A stretch of DNA of 60,724 nt from Paracoccaceae bacterium. GTDB taxonomy: Bacteria; Pseudomonadota; Alphaproteobacteria; Rhodobacterales; Rhodobacteraceae. Below, in pieces: positions 53,631-60,724 of this stretch (its first letter is position 1; each line of letters begins with the position of its first letter). The translations under genes were made by a program, and so were the position numbers. The notes below the pieces were generated by a model, which did no database searches, was not told where the DNA came from, and was given only the letters and a program-made list of their open reading frames with translations. The stretch is taken from positions 1 through 60,724 of the forward strand of contig JAIOXV010000002.1 of NCBI GenBank assembly GCA_021741465.1, written 5' to 3'.

Positions 53631-54704
53631 ATGCCCCGCGCACGTGATCTTGGTCTGCCTTTCCCCGGCATTCCTGGCCCGTTCAATGCCATTACCGATG
53701 TCGCGGGCCTGACTGTGGGCTTCAAGACATTGGTTGATCCGGCACGCCACATGCGCACGGGTGTTACCGCCATTGTTCCGCGAATGGACGCCGGACACCC
53801 GGAACCGGTTCGCGCGGGTCAGGCCACGCTGAACGGCAATGGCGAAATGACGGGAAGCCATTGGATCAATGATGGCGGCTATTTTCTTGGCCCCATTCTT
53901 ATCACCAATACCCACGGCATCGGTGCCTGTCACACCGGGGCGACCCGCTGGATGATTGATCGCTATTCAGACCATTTCCGCAATGGCATCGCTTGGGCCA
54001 TGCCCGTTGTTGCTGAAACCTATGATGGCATTTTGAATGACATCAATGCCATGTTCGTGCAGCCTGAACATGCTGTCGAAGCGCTGAACAGCGCCACATC
54101 TGGCCCTGTGCCCGAAGGTGCCGTCGGTGGTGGCACCGGGATGATCGCCTATGAGTTCAAGGCTGGCACCGGCACCGCATCGCGCCGGGTCACGGTTGCA
54201 GGCGAAACCTATACCGTTGGCGTTTTGGTTCAGGCCAACCATGGCAAGCGGCCTTGGTTCAACGTTTTGGGTCAGCCGGTTGGCCGCCAGATGCCATTCG
54301 AAGGGCTGGTGCCAAAAGAGACCGGATCTATCATTGTGGTCATCGCGACGGATGCGCCTTTGTCGACCATATCGTTGAAACACCTTGCCCGCCGCGCCGG
54401 GCTTGGCCTTGGCCGGGGCGGCACGCCGGGGGGCAATTCGTCGGGCGATATCTTTGTGGCCTTTTCCACCGCACCCTTTGGCCCGATGCCGCAGGCCGCG
54501 GGTGCCCTTATCCACCGCAGCGAGTTGAATGCCGAAATGATCGACCCGATCTATCTTGCCGCGGTGGAGGCTGTCGAAGAATCGGTTGTGAATGCCATCG
54601 TTGCGGGCAGCGACACCCCAACCTTCCGATTTCCGGGCAAAACCATTCCCGGCATAGACAAAGACGCCCTTGCCGCCATGTTCCTGCCCGTCAGGGGGGC
54701 ATAA
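53631..54704 (+). CDS. P1 family (DmpA/BapA-like) aminopeptidase
   Basis: A 357-residue self-processing Ntn-type peptidase. ITDVAGLTVGFKTL at the N-terminus, GGGTGMIAYEFKAGTGTASR near residue 166, and GRGGTPGGNSSGD near residue 262 are the family blocks. Autocleavage is expected at Asn269-Ser270, making Ser270 the nucleophile. The family splits N-terminal D- or beta-amino acids from peptides. It lies 135 bases after ilvA and converges with the ferredoxin gene. Confidence 0.9.
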   Translation: MPRARDLGLPFPGIPGPFNAITDVAGLTVGFKTLVDPARHMRTGVTAIVPRMDAGHPEPVRAGQATLNGNGEMTGSHWINDGGYFLGPILITNTHGIGACHTGATRWMIDRYSDHFRNGIAWAMPVVAETYDGILNDINAMFVQPEHAVEALNSATSGPVPEGAVGGGTGMIAYEFKAGTGTASRRVTVAGETYTVGVLVQANHGKRPWFNVLGQPVGRQMPFEGLVPKETGSIIVVIATDAPLSTISLKHLARRAGLGLGRGGTPGGNSSGDIFVAFSTAPFGPMPQAAGALIHRSELNAEMIDPIYLAAVEAVEESVVNAIVAGSDTPTFRFPGKTIPGIDKDALAAMFLPVRGA

Positions 54705-54728: not shown

Positions 54729-55040
54729 TTACTGCGGCACGATCAGGGTGATGCCATCAAGATCGGCCGACATCACGATCTGGCAGGACAGACGCGATGT
54801 GCCTTGGCGCTCTGCCTCGGCGACATCCAGCATCGCGTCTTCAAATTCACCCGCAATACCGGTCTTGGCGGCCCAATCTGGCGCGACATAGACATGACAG
54901 GTCGCACAGCTGAGCGACCCGCCACATTCACCGATCACGCGGGGCACATTGTTGGCGACGGCCGCCTCCATGAGATTTTGGCCTTCGCGCACATCTGCAG
55001 TGATGGTCTTGCCGTCACCAAGGATCCAGGTGGCTTTCAT
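54729..55040 (-). CDS. [2Fe-2S] ferredoxin, adrenodoxin/putidaredoxin type
   Basis: A 103-residue ferredoxin. Cluster ligands Cys39, Cys45 and Cys48 (ECGGSLSCATC) and Cys86 (SRLSCQI). It ends in LDGITLIVPQ, close to P450-type redoxins. It follows the glutamine-synthetase-like gene by 9 bases in the P450 operon, so it should be the electron donor of that P450. No ferredoxin reductase gene is in the window. Confidence 0.94.
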   Translation of the reverse strand: MKATWILGDGKTITADVREGQNLMEAAVANNVPRVIGECGGSLSCATCHVYVAPDWAAKTGIAGEFEDAMLDVAEAERQGTSRLSCQIVMSADLDGITLIVPQ

Positions 55041-55049
55041 GGCTTCTCC

Positions 55050-56342
55050 TTAAACATACCAGATGTACCAATCACGCAGCGCATCGCCGGCAAGATCGGA
55101 GGTTTTTTCAACTTCAGCGCGCTTCATGTAAATGTGGTTTTCGACCAGCCCAGACCCTAGAGCCGCGCAAAGTGCGGTGTCGGCCTCAAGATCGTTCAGC
55201 GCCTCGGTCAGCGATGCTGCCACGCCGTGGGGTGCGTCATTGTGGGTGAAGCCGTCGCCGGTTTCCATGGGTTGCAGCGGGTAGTTGTTCTGCACGCCAA
55301 GAAGGGCCGCCTGAAGGACGGTCGCGACGACGGTATAGGGGTTTGCGGCTGCATCCGCCATACGGTGTTCAAGGCGGGCCTTCTTGCCCCCTTCGGCCGA
55401 GACGCGCACCGTCACATTGCGGTTGTCGCCGCCCCAATTGCACCAGAACCCCGAAAGGCTGGCCGGTTGCAGCCGGTCATATGACAGGGCGTTGGGGGCG
55501 ATCAGGCCCGCCATTGCCTTGTGGTGCTGCATCCAGCCGGAAATACAGCCCCTGGCGATATCATTCAGGTTCTTGGGGTCACCCACATCGCCGTTGGCCA
55601 AGGCATTGGCGCCGCTGTGATCGGTAAAGGACAGGTTTACATGCATGCCCGATCCGCCCTTTCCCGGGATGGGTTTGGGCAGGAATGACAAGATCACCCC
55701 ATGATCCCAGGCCACTTCGCGCGCCATCTGGCGGAACAAGACAACAGTGTCGACATGGGCAACCGCCGAATCGAAGGTCAGCGTGAACTCATATTGCGGG
55801 GTGTCATATTCGGCGGTGATAAGATCCAGCGGCAGGCCGATTTCCTGCGCCTTGTTCCAGATGGCATCTGTAAAGCGGCGCGGGTCGGTGAAATTGCCGG
55901 TGCCATAGACCACCCCGCCGGGCGTGTCATAAGGCGAAATGGTGCCATCGTCATTGCGAACGAAAGCATAGGCCTCAAGCTCGATCCCGACTTTCGGGGT
56001 AAGACCGATCGCCTCCCAGGCCGCCACGGCACGTTTCAGCGCGCCGCGGGGGCACATCGGAATTGGCGTGCCATCGCCGCCATAAAGATCGCCCGTCACC
56101 ACTTTGGTATTCGGCTCCCAGCCGGGGCGAATTTCGTCTGCCTTCCACCGCAAAGCCATATCCGGGATGCCCTCAAGGCACATTGTGCCCGGGGCCTCGA
56201 CCAAAAGATCCTTGTCGTAATGCACCGAAAACGTCGGGCGGGCGAAACGGCTTTCGTCGTCGCGCATTTTGGAGGCAGGCAAGTACTTGCCGCGCATGAT
56301 GGACAGATGATCGCAGAACATCGCGCGAAGGCGGTCGGACAT
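55050..56342 (-). CDS. Glutamine-synthetase-like ligase
   Basis: A 430-residue GS-fold enzyme. MFCDHLSIMRGKYLP near the N-terminus; KVGIELEAYAF near residue 117; PKPIPGKGGSGMHVNLSF near 222-239; APNALSYDRLQPASLSGFWCNWGGDNRN near 285-312; EHRMADAAANPYT near 328. The spacing fits the gamma-glutamyl ligase branch (PuuA/aniline-GS type) rather than the housekeeping GlnA, as no GlnA adenylylation Tyr region is seen. It probably couples glutamate to an amine. Lies between P450 (32 bases) and ferredoxin (9 bases). Confidence 0.88.
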   Translation of the reverse strand: MSDRLRAMFCDHLSIMRGKYLPASKMRDDESRFARPTFSVHYDKDLLVEAPGTMCLEGIPDMALRWKADEIRPGWEPNTKVVTGDLYGGDGTPIPMCPRGALKRAVAAWEAIGLTPKVGIELEAYAFVRNDDGTISPYDTPGGVVYGTGNFTDPRRFTDAIWNKAQEIGLPLDLITAEYDTPQYEFTLTFDSAVAHVDTVVLFRQMAREVAWDHGVILSFLPKPIPGKGGSGMHVNLSFTDHSGANALANGDVGDPKNLNDIARGCISGWMQHHKAMAGLIAPNALSYDRLQPASLSGFWCNWGGDNRNVTVRVSAEGGKKARLEHRMADAAANPYTVVATVLQAALLGVQNNYPLQPMETGDGFTHNDAPHGVAASLTEALNDLEADTALCAALGSGLVENHIYMKRAEVEKTSDLAGDALRDWYIWYV

Positions 56343-56374
56343 GGTTAACTCCCTGAGATGCGGTCTTGTGCCGC

Positions 56375-57637
56375 TTATTGCAGTGTTACTGTAACGGGCA
56401 ATTCCTTGATGCCGCCAATGAAATTCGACCGTAAAAACTTCTGTTGCCCGGCGGGCTCGATGGTTTTCAGGCGTTTCGCCAGCTCTTCAAACAAGATCCG
56501 CACCTCAAGTCTTGCCAGCCACATGCCAAGGCAGACATGGGGCCCCCCCTGACCAAAAGACACATGGCGGTTCGGCGTGCGGAACAGATTGACGCGGAAA
56601 GGGTCTTCGAAGGCGCGCTCGTCGCGGTTGCCGCTTGCCCACCAAAGCAGAACTTTCTGACCCTGTTTGATGTGCTTGCCGTGAAATTCAAAATCCTGCG
56701 CGGCGGTTCGCCGGAAATAGGTCGTCGCACTTCCCCAGCGGATGATCTCATCCGGAGCGGTTTCCCAAACACCGCCGCCCGCCTGCATCTGGCCCAAAAG
56801 CTCGGGCTGATGGGCCAGCGCCTGAATGCCCGCCGCGATGGAATAGCGGGTCGTATCATTGCCTGCCGCGACGGCAAGGCAGAAGAAATTGCGAAATTCG
56901 TTCTCGGGCATGACCGTGCCATCGGGCCCGGGCTGCAACAGCAAGTGCAGAATGCCAGAGGTGTCGCCGGCCTTTTTCTGGCGCGCCAACAAGTCTTTGG
57001 CATAAACGAAAAGCTCTGCCCCGGCGGGAGAGTTGAAGGGCATCATGCGAAATTCGTCTGTCGTCATTCGGTCCAGGACATGGGTGGTAAAGTCCGGGTC
57101 AGTATTGGCGATCAGCTGATCGCCTTTCTCCACCAGCCAGGGCAAATCTTCGTCCGGCAGGCCCAAAATACGGCCGAGCATCCGCATGGGCAGTTGGCGG
57201 GCAATTTCCTTGGTCGCATCGAAACTACCCTTTTCAAGGGCCGCATCCAGAATGGGGGCCGTCAGGTCGCGGATCACCTGTTCAAACCCAGCCACAACGG
57301 GTTTGGAAAAGGCCTTGGCCAGTTTGATCCGGCTTTTCATGTGATCGGGGTTGTCGGTTTCCTGAAACGTGCGGCGGGCAAGGTATTCTTCGTAGGTCTG
57401 GTCTTCCATCCGAATGCCGCGGGCCGAAGACATGATCTGGGGCTGACCATTCAGCTTCATGATGTCTTCATGGCGGGTGACGGACCAATAGCCCTCACCG
57501 CCCGACCAGTCAGACCAGTGCATAGGGTCTTCATCCCGCAGCCGCTTGAACGTGTTGTAGGGCGCACCGGACAGAAAGCTGTCGTGGCTGCCAAGATCGG
57601 CGTGGCCGTTGTCGGTCGGGGTCCAGACGGTCATCAT
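56375..57637 (-). CDS. Cytochrome P450, CYP125-like
   Basis: A 420-residue soluble P450. I-helix AAGNDTTRYSIAAG; ExxR in APDEIIRWGSAT; heme loop FGQGGPHVCLG with Cys369, one residue longer than the common FGxGxHxCxG but like CYP125. The end GGIKELPVTV resembles steroid C26-hydroxylases. The ATG at 57637 has GGGAGAG just upstream. First gene of the P450/GS-like/ferredoxin operon. Substrate is unknown: terpenoid, steroid or amine compounds are possible. Confidence 0.92.
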   Translation of the reverse strand: MMTVWTPTDNGHADLGSHDSFLSGAPYNTFKRLRDEDPMHWSDWSGGEGYWSVTRHEDIMKLNGQPQIMSSARGIRMEDQTYEEYLARRTFQETDNPDHMKSRIKLAKAFSKPVVAGFEQVIRDLTAPILDAALEKGSFDATKEIARQLPMRMLGRILGLPDEDLPWLVEKGDQLIANTDPDFTTHVLDRMTTDEFRMMPFNSPAGAELFVYAKDLLARQKKAGDTSGILHLLLQPGPDGTVMPENEFRNFFCLAVAAGNDTTRYSIAAGIQALAHQPELLGQMQAGGGVWETAPDEIIRWGSATTYFRRTAAQDFEFHGKHIKQGQKVLLWWASGNRDERAFEDPFRVNLFRTPNRHVSFGQGGPHVCLGMWLARLEVRILFEELAKRLKTIEPAGQQKFLRSNFIGGIKELPVTVTLQ

Positions 57638-57668
57638 TACTCTCCCTTGCCGCAGGGGCAATTTGGAA

Positions 57669-57693
57669 ATATACTAAACAGGTTCATAAATAT
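57669..57693. promoter_or_regulatory. AT-rich dyad between the two divergent operons
   Basis: An imperfect dyad (ATATACTAAAC / GTTCATAAATAT) sits in an unusually AT-rich 72-base gap between the P450 and the amidotransferase gene. A minus-strand TTTACA with TAGTAT 16 bases later overlaps it, so this may be an operator plus promoter for both operons. Confidence 0.35.
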
Positions 57694-57709
57694 GTAAAGC
57701 TGGAAGATC

Positions 57710-58390
57710 ATGCATATCGCTGTCTTGATGACGAACACGGATGAATCGGAATTCGCCCAGGCCCGTCCGAAAGACGGCGAAAAATTCACCACCATGATTC
57801 ATTCGGTTCGGCCCGATTGGCGGGTGACGGTTTTCCCGGTGAAAGACGGGGTTTTCCCGCCCGCAAATGCCCGGTTTGACGGCTGGTTGATCGGAGGAAG
57901 CCCCGCCTCGGTGCATGATTCTGACCCTTGGGTCGGGCAGCTCTTTGCCCTGATCCGGCGGTTGGTCAGCGACGGGCAGGCGATCTTTGGCGCGTGTTTT
58001 GGCCATCAGGCCATCGCGATGGCGCTGGGCGGGCATGTTGGCCCCAACCCGGGCGGCTGGGTCTTTGGGTTGGTGGAAACCACGATTGAGGGCGCGCCGC
58101 TCAAGCTTTATGGCAGCCATATGGAGCAGGTGCTGCAGTTGCCAAAAGGCGCCGTCATTCTTGGCGGAACGCCCGATTGTCCGGTGGGCAGCTTTGCCAT
58201 CCCCGGTCAGGTGATGACCACCCAATATCATCCCGAAATGACCCATGACTTCATCGGCGATCTGGTCGAAGAATATGCCGACGATCTTCCCAAGACCGTG
58301 GCAGATCGTGCCCGCCAGTCACTGGCCCAGCGTGCCGACAGCCGCGCGATTGCCGAACGCATTGCGTGTTTCTTCGAAGGCCAGCGTTAG
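57710..58390 (+). CDS. Class I glutamine-amidotransferase-like protein
   Basis: A 226-residue GATase domain protein. Cys96 in AIFGACFGHQAIAMALGG is the nucleophile; His in TTQYHPEM is the partner; a Glu follows in this segment. It is stand-alone, without a synthetase domain, resembling amidotransferase-like proteins of amine loci. It begins the plus-strand operon with the ThDP enzyme (135 bases later) and hydantoinase. Confidence 0.88.
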   Translation: MHIAVLMTNTDESEFAQARPKDGEKFTTMIHSVRPDWRVTVFPVKDGVFPPANARFDGWLIGGSPASVHDSDPWVGQLFALIRRLVSDGQAIFGACFGHQAIAMALGGHVGPNPGGWVFGLVETTIEGAPLKLYGSHMEQVLQLPKGAVILGGTPDCPVGSFAIPGQVMTTQYHPEMTHDFIGDLVEEYADDLPKTVADRARQSLAQRADSRAIAERIACFFEGQR

Positions 58391-58525
58391 CCACGGCCGC
58401 GGTTGGCGGGCAGACAGACCGTGGCGATCGACAAGCAAAAATTGTCAAACGCCCGCAAATCTTGATTTCAGTTTCCCCGCTTTGCAGTCAGGATGCCCGA
58501 AAGGCCGATCAGGCCGTGAAAGGGC

Positions 58526-60196
58526 ATGAACATGCAAAATGGCGGGCAGCTTTTGGTGAAAAGCCTTGTGGCGCTGGGCGCCCGCAAGGCTTTTGGCGTG
58601 CCGGGCGAAAGCTATCTGGCGGTTCTGGACGCCCTTCATGACACCGCCGGAAAGTTGGACTTCGTTTTGTGCCGCAACGAAGGTGGGGCAGCCTTTATGG
58701 CGGCGGCCTTCGGAAAGCTCACGGGCCAGCCCGGCATTTGCATGGTGACGCGCGGGCCGGGGGTGACAAACGCCTCGATCGGGATCCATACCGCCATGCA
58801 GGATTCTGCGCCGATGCTGGTCTTTGTTGGCCAAGTGGGCACCGACATGAAGGGGCGAGAGGCGTTTCAGGAAATAGACTATCGCGCCATGTTTGGAACG
58901 GTGGCGAAATGGGTGGTCGAGATTGACGACGCCGACCGCCTCCCGGAAATTCTGTCCCGCGCCTGGATCACCGCGACAACTGGGCGTCCCGGCCCTGTTG
59001 TTGTGGCGCTGCCCGAAGACATGCTGACCAGCCAAACCGCCGCGCCGGCGTTGACGGGCCCCGCCCGTATCGCCGAACCCGCACCCGAAGCAGGCGCCTT
59101 GCGCGATGCCATGGCGCTTTTGGCTTCGGCCAAACGCCCGGCGATCTTGCTTGGTGGCTGCAACTGGACAGAAGAAGGCAAGGCCGCCCTAAAGGCCTTT
59201 GCCGAGGCGTCGGATATCCCGGTCGTGGCCGCGCTGCGTTATCAGGACATGTTCGACAACCACTCACCCGCCTATGCGGGCGATCTGGGGCTGGGGCTGG
59301 CTGCTGGTGTACGCAAAACCATCGCCGAAGCCGATGTCGTTTTGGCACTGAACACCCGCTTTGGTGAAATTTCGACCGAAGGCTACACACTGTTTGCGGT
59401 GCCGAATCCCACGCAGAAAATCATTCATGTGCATGGATCGGACCGCGAGCTTGGCAAGATTTACATCCCTCAGATCGGCATTCATGCCGGGCCAAATGCT
59501 TTTGTCGCAGCGCTGACGCCGGTCAAAGGCGATTGGGCCGATTGGCGCGCACGGGCGCGGGCCGATTACGAAGCGACATTCGCACTTCCGCCCCAGCCCT
59601 CGCCGGTGGATATGGTCGAGGTGACGGTGCATCTGAACAAGGTCTTGCCGCCAGACGCCATTTTGACCAATGGCGCAGGAAACTTCACAATCTGGCCCAA
59701 CAAGTTTTTCAAGTTTGGCCCAAAGGCACGGCTTTTGGCCCCACAATCGGGTGCCATGGGGTATGGGCTGCCCGCCGCCATTGCGGCAAAGGTGGCCCAC
59801 CCGACGCGCACCGTTCTTTGCTTTGCCGGGGACGGCGATTTCCAGATGAATTGCCAAGAGCTTGGTACCGCCATGCAGGCCGGTGCGCAGCCGATTGTTC
59901 TTATTCTGAACAACGGCACCTATGGCACGATCCGCGCCCATCAAGAACGGAACTATCCTGCCCGCGTCTCGGGCACCGATTTGCACAATCCCGATTTCAC
60001 CACGCTCGCCCGCGCTTATGGCTTTCACGCCGAACGGGTTGAAACCACCGCCGAGTTCGCTGCAGCCTTTGACCGTGCCTTGGCCTCAACCACCGGGGCC
60101 GTTCTTGATCTGAACATTTCACCCGAGGCGCTTACGCCGCGTGTCACGCTAAGCCAGATGCGCGCCACGGCATTGGCGACCCAAGAGAAGAAATGA
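58526..60196 (+). CDS. Thiamine-diphosphate-dependent enzyme, acetolactate-synthase-like
   Basis: A 556-residue ThDP enzyme. The activating Glu52 is in LCRNEGGAAFMAAAFGKL; VTRGPGVTNA follows. The ThDP motif FAGDGDFQMNCQELGTAM...ILNNGTYG is near residues 430-475. It is shorter than biosynthetic IlvB, has no IlvN partner nearby, and could be a decarboxylase, carboligase or oxidase. It overlaps the hydantoinase gene by 4 bases. Confidence 0.9.
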   Translation: MNMQNGGQLLVKSLVALGARKAFGVPGESYLAVLDALHDTAGKLDFVLCRNEGGAAFMAAAFGKLTGQPGICMVTRGPGVTNASIGIHTAMQDSAPMLVFVGQVGTDMKGREAFQEIDYRAMFGTVAKWVVEIDDADRLPEILSRAWITATTGRPGPVVVALPEDMLTSQTAAPALTGPARIAEPAPEAGALRDAMALLASAKRPAILLGGCNWTEEGKAALKAFAEASDIPVVAALRYQDMFDNHSPAYAGDLGLGLAAGVRKTIAEADVVLALNTRFGEISTEGYTLFAVPNPTQKIIHVHGSDRELGKIYIPQIGIHAGPNAFVAALTPVKGDWADWRARARADYEATFALPPQPSPVDMVEVTVHLNKVLPPDAILTNGAGNFTIWPNKFFKFGPKARLLAPQSGAMGYGLPAAIAAKVAHPTRTVLCFAGDGDFQMNCQELGTAMQAGAQPIVLILNNGTYGTIRAHQERNYPARVSGTDLHNPDFTTLARAYGFHAERVETTAEFAAAFDRALASTTGAVLDLNISPEALTPRVTLSQMRATALATQEKK

Positions 60197-60724
60197 ACGT
60201 TCGGCTTGGAGCAGATATCGGCGGCACGTTCACCGACGTTGTGCTCGAGGTTGGGGCCAAGCTTTACTCGACCAAGATTTTGACAAACCACGCCCTGCCC
60301 GAACAGGCCATTCTTGATGGAATGGCCGTGGTTTTGGCAGAGGCGGGCCTGACGCCTGCCGATCTTCAAATCGTGATCCACGGCACCACCCTTGCGACGA
60401 ACGCGCTGATCGAAAGGCGCGGGGCAAAGGTGGCCTTCGTGACAACCGAAGGGTTTCGCGATGTGATCGAGATGCGAACCGAAAGCCGCTTTGACCAATA
60501 TGATCTGAACCTTCGCCTGCCCCCGCCCTTGGTGCCGCGCGAAGACCGTCTTGTGGTGTGCGGCCGGATCGGCGCGCAGGGGCAAGAGCTTGCGCCTTTG
60601 GACGAGGCAGGGCTTGCCGCCATCGCCAACCAAATTGCCGCCGGCGGTTACGAAGCGGTCGCGATCGGCTTCATCCACGCCTATATGAACCCCGCGCATG
60701 AGGTTCGGGCACGCGAGATCATTG
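60193..60724 (+). CDS. Hydantoinase/oxoprolinase HyuA-type subunit, N-terminal part
   Basis: 177 residues visible; the gene runs off the right edge. It begins MNVRLGADIGGTFTDVVLEV with the ATP-binding ASKHA-type glycine motif and continues with HGTTLATNALIERRGAKVAFVTTEGFRDV, the HyuA pattern. HyuA works with HyuB (expected beyond the window) in ATP-driven opening of lactam or hydantoin rings, or in carboxylations. ATGA overlap with the ThDP gene ties it to this operon. Confidence 0.93.
   Translation, partial: MNVRLGADIGGTFTDVVLEVGAKLYSTKILTNHALPEQAILDGMAVVLAEAGLTPADLQIVIHGTTLATNALIERRGAKVAFVTTEGFRDVIEMRTESRFDQYDLNLRLPPPLVPREDRLVVCGRIGAQGQELAPLDEAGLAAIANQIAAGGYEAVAIGFIHAYMNPAHEVRAREII

Follow-up and report, generated by a model that had tools for sequence, protein, structure and literature searches.

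The stretch of DNA analysed here (hereafter the window) is the entire contig C140, 60724 bases long, of a draft genome of the Rhodobacteraceae (G000, 82% complete); throughout, G denotes a genome in the collection, L a fetched locus stretch and C a contig. Near its right end, genes for a cytochrome P450, a glutamine-synthetase-like (GS-like) protein and a 2Fe-2S ferredoxin follow one another on the minus strand and form one same-strand predicted operon. A gene for a class I glutamine amidotransferase-like (GATase) protein is transcribed divergently from the P450 gene, and genes for a thiamine diphosphate (ThDP)-dependent enzyme and for the hydantoinase/oxoprolinase HyuA lie beyond it (Table 1). 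All six reading frames are found where the initial annotation had placed them and each matches its family; the gaps of 32 and 9 bases within the minus-strand trio, the latter separating the ferredoxin gene from the end of the GS-like gene, and the 4-base overlap of the ThDP and HyuA frames had likewise been given correctly. The HyuA frame is incomplete because contig C140 ends there. The P450 gene was called from a TTG at position 57661; since the P450 orthologues begin with MT(V/I)W.P in the alignment described below, translation probably starts instead at an ATG at about 57637 or 57634.

Table 1. Features at the right end of the window
Feature	Coordinates	Strand	Profile match
2Fe-2S ferredoxin, putative P450 electron donor	54729..55040	-	Fer2, 38.7 bits
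GS-like gamma-glutamyl amide synthetase (GoaS type, proposed tyramine/phenethylamine ligase)	55050..56342	-	Gln-synt_C, 240.5 bits
Cytochrome P450 monooxygenase	56375..57661 as called (56375..57637 after start correction)	-	p450 family
Short intergenic region between divergent P450 and GATase genes, likely a shared promoter region (putative, from coordinates)	57638..57709		
Class I GATase-like gamma-glutamyl hydrolase (predicted), divergent from P450	57710..58390	+	GATase family
ThDP-dependent enzyme, neighbour judged outside the system	58526..60196	+	PRK08199, 775 bits (cut-off 539)
HyuA, N-terminal part, neighbour judged outside the system	60193..60723	+	Hydant_A_N, 159.6 bits

Conservation of the four-gene core

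The GS-like gene was found in 45 of the 198 genomes of the family (E <= 1e-60), which corresponds to 44 of 197 genera. In a set of 59 loci, the window included, a P450 gene is found no more than 4 kb from the GS-like gene 56 times and a GATase gene equally often, and a ferredoxin gene is present at this distance in 36 loci. The P450 gene is positioned directly upstream of the GS-like gene on the same strand in 54 loci, 40 have a divergent GATase gene next to the P450 gene, and gene calling gave a GntR regulator in 30 of the stretches. The four-gene arrangement, with the GATase gene divergent from the P450, GS-like and ferredoxin genes, is far from chance, and we refer to it as the core.

A set of 21 loci came from the collection of named genomes, and the flanks of GS-like genes of the family were fetched as well. 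The stretches are 5-25 kb long, so that partner genes may be missed in the counts. Dropped from the set were a fragment (L021), duplicates that by length and match lie on the contigs of L004, L005 and L015 (L047-L049), two stretches of 3-4 kb (L027 and L078), one locus for which the gene caller gave one small frame (L125 of G033) and the short loci of 3-4 kb among L023-L042 that were superseded by a longer stretch. L057 was retained although its contig ends just past the GS-like gene, and the set includes loci titled Rhizobiaceae (L018) and Alphaproteobacteria (L002); loci of other lineages (L022, L044-L046, L154-L161 and L163) were counted separately. Genes were called by our own codon-usage script, which may overlook small or AT-rich genes, and family labels were carried over by blastp from one annotated representative per cluster. 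For alignments we used, each time together with the window protein, 32 of 64 GS-like, 25 of 51 GATase and 23 of 60 P450 sequences.

Several further genes were seen beside the core in a few loci. An S58 peptidase gene (positions 53631-54704 of the window) adjoins it in the window and in four other loci (5/59), which may be simple synteny, and was left out as a core member. A gene for an OYE-type flavoenzyme of 677 amino acids lies upstream of the P450 gene in L006, L007 and L020; its product in L007 is close to, and below the cut-off of, the mycofactocin-associated FadH/OYE family 2. A styrene-monooxygenase-A-like flavoprotein (410 amino acids, Smoa_sbd) and a flavin reductase (164 amino acids) are encoded as a pair at 17440-19170 of L126, and this pair is found near the core in a few genomes (also L005, L009 and L064). 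A Sagittula stellata plasmid carries a run of GS-like, GATase and P450 genes (L046, 7980-11287) that adjoins genes for a salicylyl-CoA 5-hydroxylase and a ring-hydroxylating dioxygenase. With 37% identity to the window P450 and 24% over 259 residues to the window GS-like protein, it forms another GS/GATase/P450 branch, the partners of which are different.

Predicted functions of the core proteins

The GS-like protein scores far under the profile cut-offs for GlnA (162.7 bits, cut-off 429), for type III GS and for the PuuA type, its best NCBIfam match (193.7 bits, cut-off 650). Identity with GlnA and with the PuuA equivalog is ruled out by these scores, and the assignment to GlnA that the initial annotation had named as fatal to its proposal did not materialise. 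Ten residues that are invariant in all 33 aligned sequences (E121, E123, E178, E185, H234, R308, R313, R323, E325 and R327) presumably form the metal and nucleotide sites, their roles being taken over from GlnA. In GlnA, a glutamate of the flap is part of the ammonia site. The flap glutamate of solved ammonia-using GlnAs aligns with Leu296 of the GS-like protein, and leucine (26 sequences) or methionine (7 sequences) occupies this position in the alignment; the GS of an aniline-type plasmid (L192) has the same Ser-Leu there. With catalytic residues retained and the flap glutamate lost, we propose from the alignment that the protein is of the glutamyl organic amide synthetase (GoaS) type. The AlphaFold2 (AF2) model of the GS-like protein (mean predicted local distance difference test, pLDDT, 78.8) matches GS structures including the 1-naphthylamine GS 8wwu (8.1e-27), above which archaeal GlnAs are ranked (2.3e-30). 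Residues 301-307 near the flap fall below a pLDDT of 50, and because the model is too uncertain in this region we make no claims on the substrate pocket.

In the P450 the haem-ligating Cys369, the EXXR residues E297 and R300 and the I-helix threonines T262 and T263 are invariant in the 24 aligned sequences; D261, which precedes the two threonines, is present in 23 of them and replaced by glutamate in one. The nearest solved chain is 'CYP125MRCA' (1.2e-87), followed by CYP124 (1.8e-61). The ferredoxin carries a C-x5-C-x2-C...C motif. The GATase is a stand-alone GATase domain, the triad Cys96/His174/Glu176 of which is invariant in 26 of 26 aligned sequences. Its AF2 model (pLDDT 95.5) has Arabidopsis gamma-glutamyl peptidase 1 (GGP1) as nearest fold (3.3e-21, TM score 0.88), and the next different enzyme follows at 1.3e-14. 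From its modelled fold, the protein looks like a gamma-glutamyl hydrolase.

Partner genes and the host's homoprotocatechuate pathway

Genes next to the core recur in three sets, and 35 of the 59 loci hold at least one such gene. The first set consists of genes of the homoprotocatechuate (Hpa) pathway, with representatives of HpaD (386 bits, cut-off 321) and HpaH (373, cut-off 352) above their cut-offs, HpaI just under it (357, cut-off 369) and HpaG and HpaF below. The second comprises a PRK07481 class III aminotransferase (718 bits, cut-off 575) together with IclR, a TctABC transporter, a PuuC-like aldehyde dehydrogenase and a Tm-1-like gene, the names IclR, TctABC and Tm-1 being those of an annotated Ruegeria locus. 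The third is a pyridoxal-phosphate-dependent decarboxylase, to which some genomes add a PRK08132 flavin monooxygenase, DUF2783 and HpaI. The decarboxylases have DOPA decarboxylase 7xin as best match (L156, 1.6e-218; L019, 4.4e-107).

The same partners stand out when entire genomes are compared. Among the 198 genomes, HpaD is present in 38 of the 45 with the GS-like gene and in 28 of the 153 without it (p=5e-16), the PRK07481 transaminase in 42 and 43, respectively (p=1e-15), and the aromatic amino acid decarboxylase in 40 and 54 (p=1e-10). In nine of the 38 genomes that have both genes, HpaD and the GS-like gene are at most 25 kb apart (0.5 expected), and for PRK07481 the value is 22 of 42 (0.7 expected), expectations that assume genomes of 3.8 Mb. 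The same sampling gives null results for the ThDP enzyme (p=0.40) and for HpaB (p=0.77).

Individual loci illustrate these associations. In L082 the genes hpaF-E-D-decarboxylase-G-H lie beside the GS-like gene, and one stretch of G176 holds the core, the transporter, the transaminase and hpa genes. In another lineage, four genomes of one other genus (L154-L157) have an operon of the order aldehyde dehydrogenase-HpaD_Fe-HpaG-ADC-decarboxylase-P450-GS-ferredoxin, with the decarboxylase in three of the four. Another gene in the same direction follows the ferredoxin gene and was identified in L156 by Pfam as a ferredoxin reductase; the L156 operon is preceded by genes for an amino acid permease and MarR. 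The same partners surround P450 and GS-like genes in an actinobacterial locus (L022), in Novosphingobium (L044) and in Streptomyces (L045), the GS of the last being only 31% identical to that of the window. All seven of these loci have an ADC-family gene along with HpaD_Fe-like and HpaG-like genes; its product is MppR-like in L156 (4jm3, 9.4e-44). The ADC-family gene may take the place of a hydratase or aldolase. A kinase-aminotransferase fusion gene adjoins the operon of L157, and APH kinase and PRK06148-type aminotransferase genes recur near P450-GS loci (L157, L055, L063, L074, L112 and L123).

The window genome itself carries an hpaF-E-D-G-H-I operon on contig C112 (L164). Its HpaD reaches 392 bits (cut-off 321.4), and HpaE, F, G, H and I were named by similarity to labelled neighbours at other loci (71, 39, 59, 68 and 71%). 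For HpaB_N there was no match in this 82% complete genome. HpaB is present in only 5 of the 38 genomes with both the GS-like gene and HpaD, so another ring hydroxylase would be needed if the substrate is a monophenol. A complementarity of HpaB and the GS-like gene is unspecific (5/45 with and 14/153 without GS-like).

The ThDP enzyme and HyuA behave differently from these partners. The initial annotation had treated all six genes as one system that ends in lactam or hydantoin opening and C-C cleavage by the ThDP enzyme, and neither part of this is borne out. Of the 198 genomes, 109 gave a match to the ThDP protein (E <= 1e-150), namely 22 of the 45 with and 87 of the 153 without the GS-like gene, and its gene lies beside the core in two of the 59 loci (the window and L009). 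With this and the null co-occurrence, the six-gene unit is ruled out; a lack of joint conservation of the six was a refuting condition that the initial annotation had itself set. In L009, the ThDP and HyuA genes come after the ferredoxin gene in the same orientation and reach to the end of the contig. ThDP, HyuA and HyuB genes are contiguous in 4 of 20 fetched ThDP stretches of relatives (L126, L129, L131 and L138); in the remainder of the 20, no HyuA gene was detected next to the ThDP gene. In G178, a congener of the window genome, the three genes are followed by genes for an aminotransferase I/II, an NAD-dependent epimerase, a FAD-dependent oxidoreductase and LysR (L126, 1248-11008), with the ThDP gene about 11 kb away from the GS-like gene. 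Two of 22 genomes, which belong to one genus, have the ThDP and GS-like genes at most 25 kb apart (0.3 expected, p=0.034). The ThDP/HyuA pair is no regular part of the core; a local link to it may exist in a few close relatives.

A proposed route for aromatic amines

We tentatively propose, with a confidence somewhat short of even, that the core is an accessory upper module for the catabolism of phenethylamine-type aromatic amines, most likely tyramine, that feeds the Hpa ring-cleavage pathway. From gene content, linkage, co-occurrence, the hpa operon, active-site residues and folds we infer the following substrate, order of steps and P450 regiochemistry. The amine would be provided by the aromatic amino acid decarboxylase, the gene of which is seen in relatives and as an unlinked copy in the window genome. 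The GS-like enzyme would join L-glutamate to the amine in an ATP-dependent reaction. The P450, supplied with electrons by the ferredoxin, may then hydroxylate the gamma-glutamyl amide, most simply at the ring, converting gamma-glutamyl-tyramine to gamma-glutamyl-dopamine, with the glutamyl group serving as a handle and as a mask of the amine. Cleavage of the gamma-glutamyl bond by the GATase would recover the glutamate, the PRK07481 amine transaminase and the aldehyde dehydrogenase would yield homoprotocatechuate, and HpaD-E-F-G-H-I would cleave the ring. We prefer ring hydroxylation because the transaminase is present in 42 and HpaD in 38 of the 45 genomes with the GS-like gene, so that a second way of deamination would be superfluous, and because 33 of the 38 genomes that combine the GS-like gene with HpaD lack HpaB. 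The latter is the weak point of the argument, since HpaB is also missing from 22 of the 28 HpaD genomes without the GS-like gene and its absence hence does not point specifically to the P450.

Other observations also weigh against this proposal. In 24 of the 59 loci no partner gene is present in the fetched stretch, and the p values for co-occurrence ignore phylogeny. In the window genome the decarboxylase copy is unlinked (contig C183), and PRK07481, present in G178 of the same genus, was not found in the 82% of the genome that is covered. The HpaD_Fe protein of L022 is far under its cut-off (124 bits, cut-off 316), and among the partly annotated frames of the seven HpaD_Fe-type loci no GATase or PRK07481-type transaminase is labelled. 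A further variant may be considered, in which the gamma-glutamyl residue acts as a protecting group for aromatic biogenic amines: it would mask the amine so that the P450 makes the catechol without cyclisation of the dopamine-type product, and in the HpaD_Fe-type operons (L154-L157, L022 and L045) ring cleavage would take place on the still glutamylated compound. We regard this variant as unlikely; if true, such a route to central metabolism would differ from pathways that begin with an amine oxidase.

The absence of these labels bears as well on the site of P450 attack. As one half of a composite amine oxidase, the P450 would hydroxylate the carbon atom adjacent to the amide nitrogen in gamma-glutamyl-dopamine or gamma-glutamyl-tyramine to give the arylacetaldehyde and L-glutamine, and the GATase would be a safety valve for excess gamma-glutamyl amide, as for AtdA2. 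Such an N-dealkylation fits the HpaD_Fe loci of other lineages better than ring hydroxylation, because it explains operons that have neither GATase nor PRK07481-type transaminase labelled (L022, L044, L045 and L154-L157). A decarboxylase related to DOPA decarboxylase would yield an amine that is already a catechol, for which ring hydroxylation would be unneeded, and passages of PMC11335346 describe NpaA2 as dispensable and AtdA2 as keeping gamma-glutamylanilide low. However, the transaminase of 42 of the 45 genomes would then be redundant, and in the 59 loci the GATase is conserved as much as the P450; we hold this mechanism to be rather improbable. Attack at the benzylic (beta) position is a still more doubtful choice. 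Here an APH kinase and a PRK06148-type aminotransferase acting as phospholyase would remove the nitrogen after deglutamylation, again leading to the arylacetaldehyde. A fused APH-M23-Aminotran_3 protein is encoded beside the operon of L157 (12360-15398), and the two labels occur in 5 (aminotransferase) and 4 (APH) of the 59 loci, but these are few, and the putative phospholyase role is carried over from related animal enzymes.

Two known types of amine catabolism provide other substrates. In the Puu pathway of Escherichia coli (PuuA, PuuC, PuuD and PuuE), putrescine is gamma-glutamylated, oxidised, hydrolysed and transaminated, which is the logic proposed here. Polyamine catabolism of this kind would make the GS-like protein a gamma-glutamylputrescine synthetase, the aldehyde dehydrogenase PuuC, the GATase PuuD and the class III aminotransferase PuuE, and PuuC is indeed the best NCBIfam match of the linked dehydrogenase (L074, 549.6 bits), as PuuA is that of the GS-like protein. 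Both scores lie far below the equivalog cut-offs (850 and 650), a P450 stands in place of the FAD oxidase PuuB, and the P450, HpaD and the aromatic amino acid decarboxylase would be left unexplained, so that this assignment is very unlikely. Mycobacterial and actinobacterial pip/mor loci hold a CYP151 P450, a ferredoxin and a GS-like gene together. The window resembles them in having these three kinds of gene in one predicted operon; pip/mor loci are not known to be linked to Hpa genes. According to the passages seen in PMC9477822, the Gulosibacter P450 genes pipA and bioI, related to PipA/MorA (52-53%), are numbered beside the glutamine synthetases GMOLON4_3052 and 438, which are discussed there in terms of ammonium assimilation. 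A route for a cyclic amine, N-heterocycle or lactam in which HyuA and the ThDP enzyme take part, as in the initial annotation, is in line with this likeness, with the position of the ThDP-HyuA pair in the window and L009 and with the ThDP genes that lie within 25 kb in two genomes. We consider such a route most improbable, because the genes that recur as partners are those for Hpa enzymes, an aromatic amino acid decarboxylase, an amine transaminase and an aldehyde dehydrogenase and the ThDP enzyme does not co-occur.

The preferred reading, ring hydroxylation of a gamma-glutamylated phenethylamine, is closest to the aniline and 1-naphthylamine systems (AtdA1-A5, TdnQT and NpaA1-A5), in which, according to passages of PMC11335346, GS-like and GAT-like proteins and an oxygenase feed a catechol pathway; NpaA1 glutamylates 1-naphthylamine, enzymes of this kind are named GoaS, and the GAT-like NpaA2 is not necessary. 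The suggestion of the initial annotation that an amine is gamma-glutamylated and oxygenated as in aniline catabolism is supported: the window GATase is 38% identical over 183 residues to that of a Comamonas plasmid cluster (L192) of GATase, GS-like and Rieske dioxygenase genes, and the GS-like proteins share 27%. In contrast to the aniline type, the window has a P450 and a Fer2 ferredoxin instead of a two-subunit Rieske dioxygenase and reductase, its GATase gene is divergently transcribed, and the partners of the core are Hpa and decarboxylase/transaminase genes, which argues for an aralkylamine rather than an arylamine. As the Rieske dioxygenase is replaced, the core would work like an aniline-dioxygenase-type system and is not a member of it. 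At the lower end, the window genome carries the homoprotocatechuate meta-cleavage pathway with an HpaD over the cut-off; unlike in the usual Hpa pathway, HpaB was not found in this 82% complete genome, and the GS-like/P450 module would take over the upper part or be added to it. In the excerpts of open-licence PMC literature among the matches listed, we found no description of a GS-like/P450/GATase module combined with Hpa genes.

For anilines, oxygenation by Rieske dioxygenases after gamma-glutamylation is established. If our proposal is true, its P450 version would be a common route by which members of the family (45 of 198 genomes) use tyramine- or dopamine-like amines. Proteins that carry no more than the annotation 'glutamine synthetase family protein' or 'type 1 glutamine amidotransferase', such as those of Ruegeria sp. 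TM1040, would then have a function assigned, and the pathway is open to direct growth and enzyme tests.

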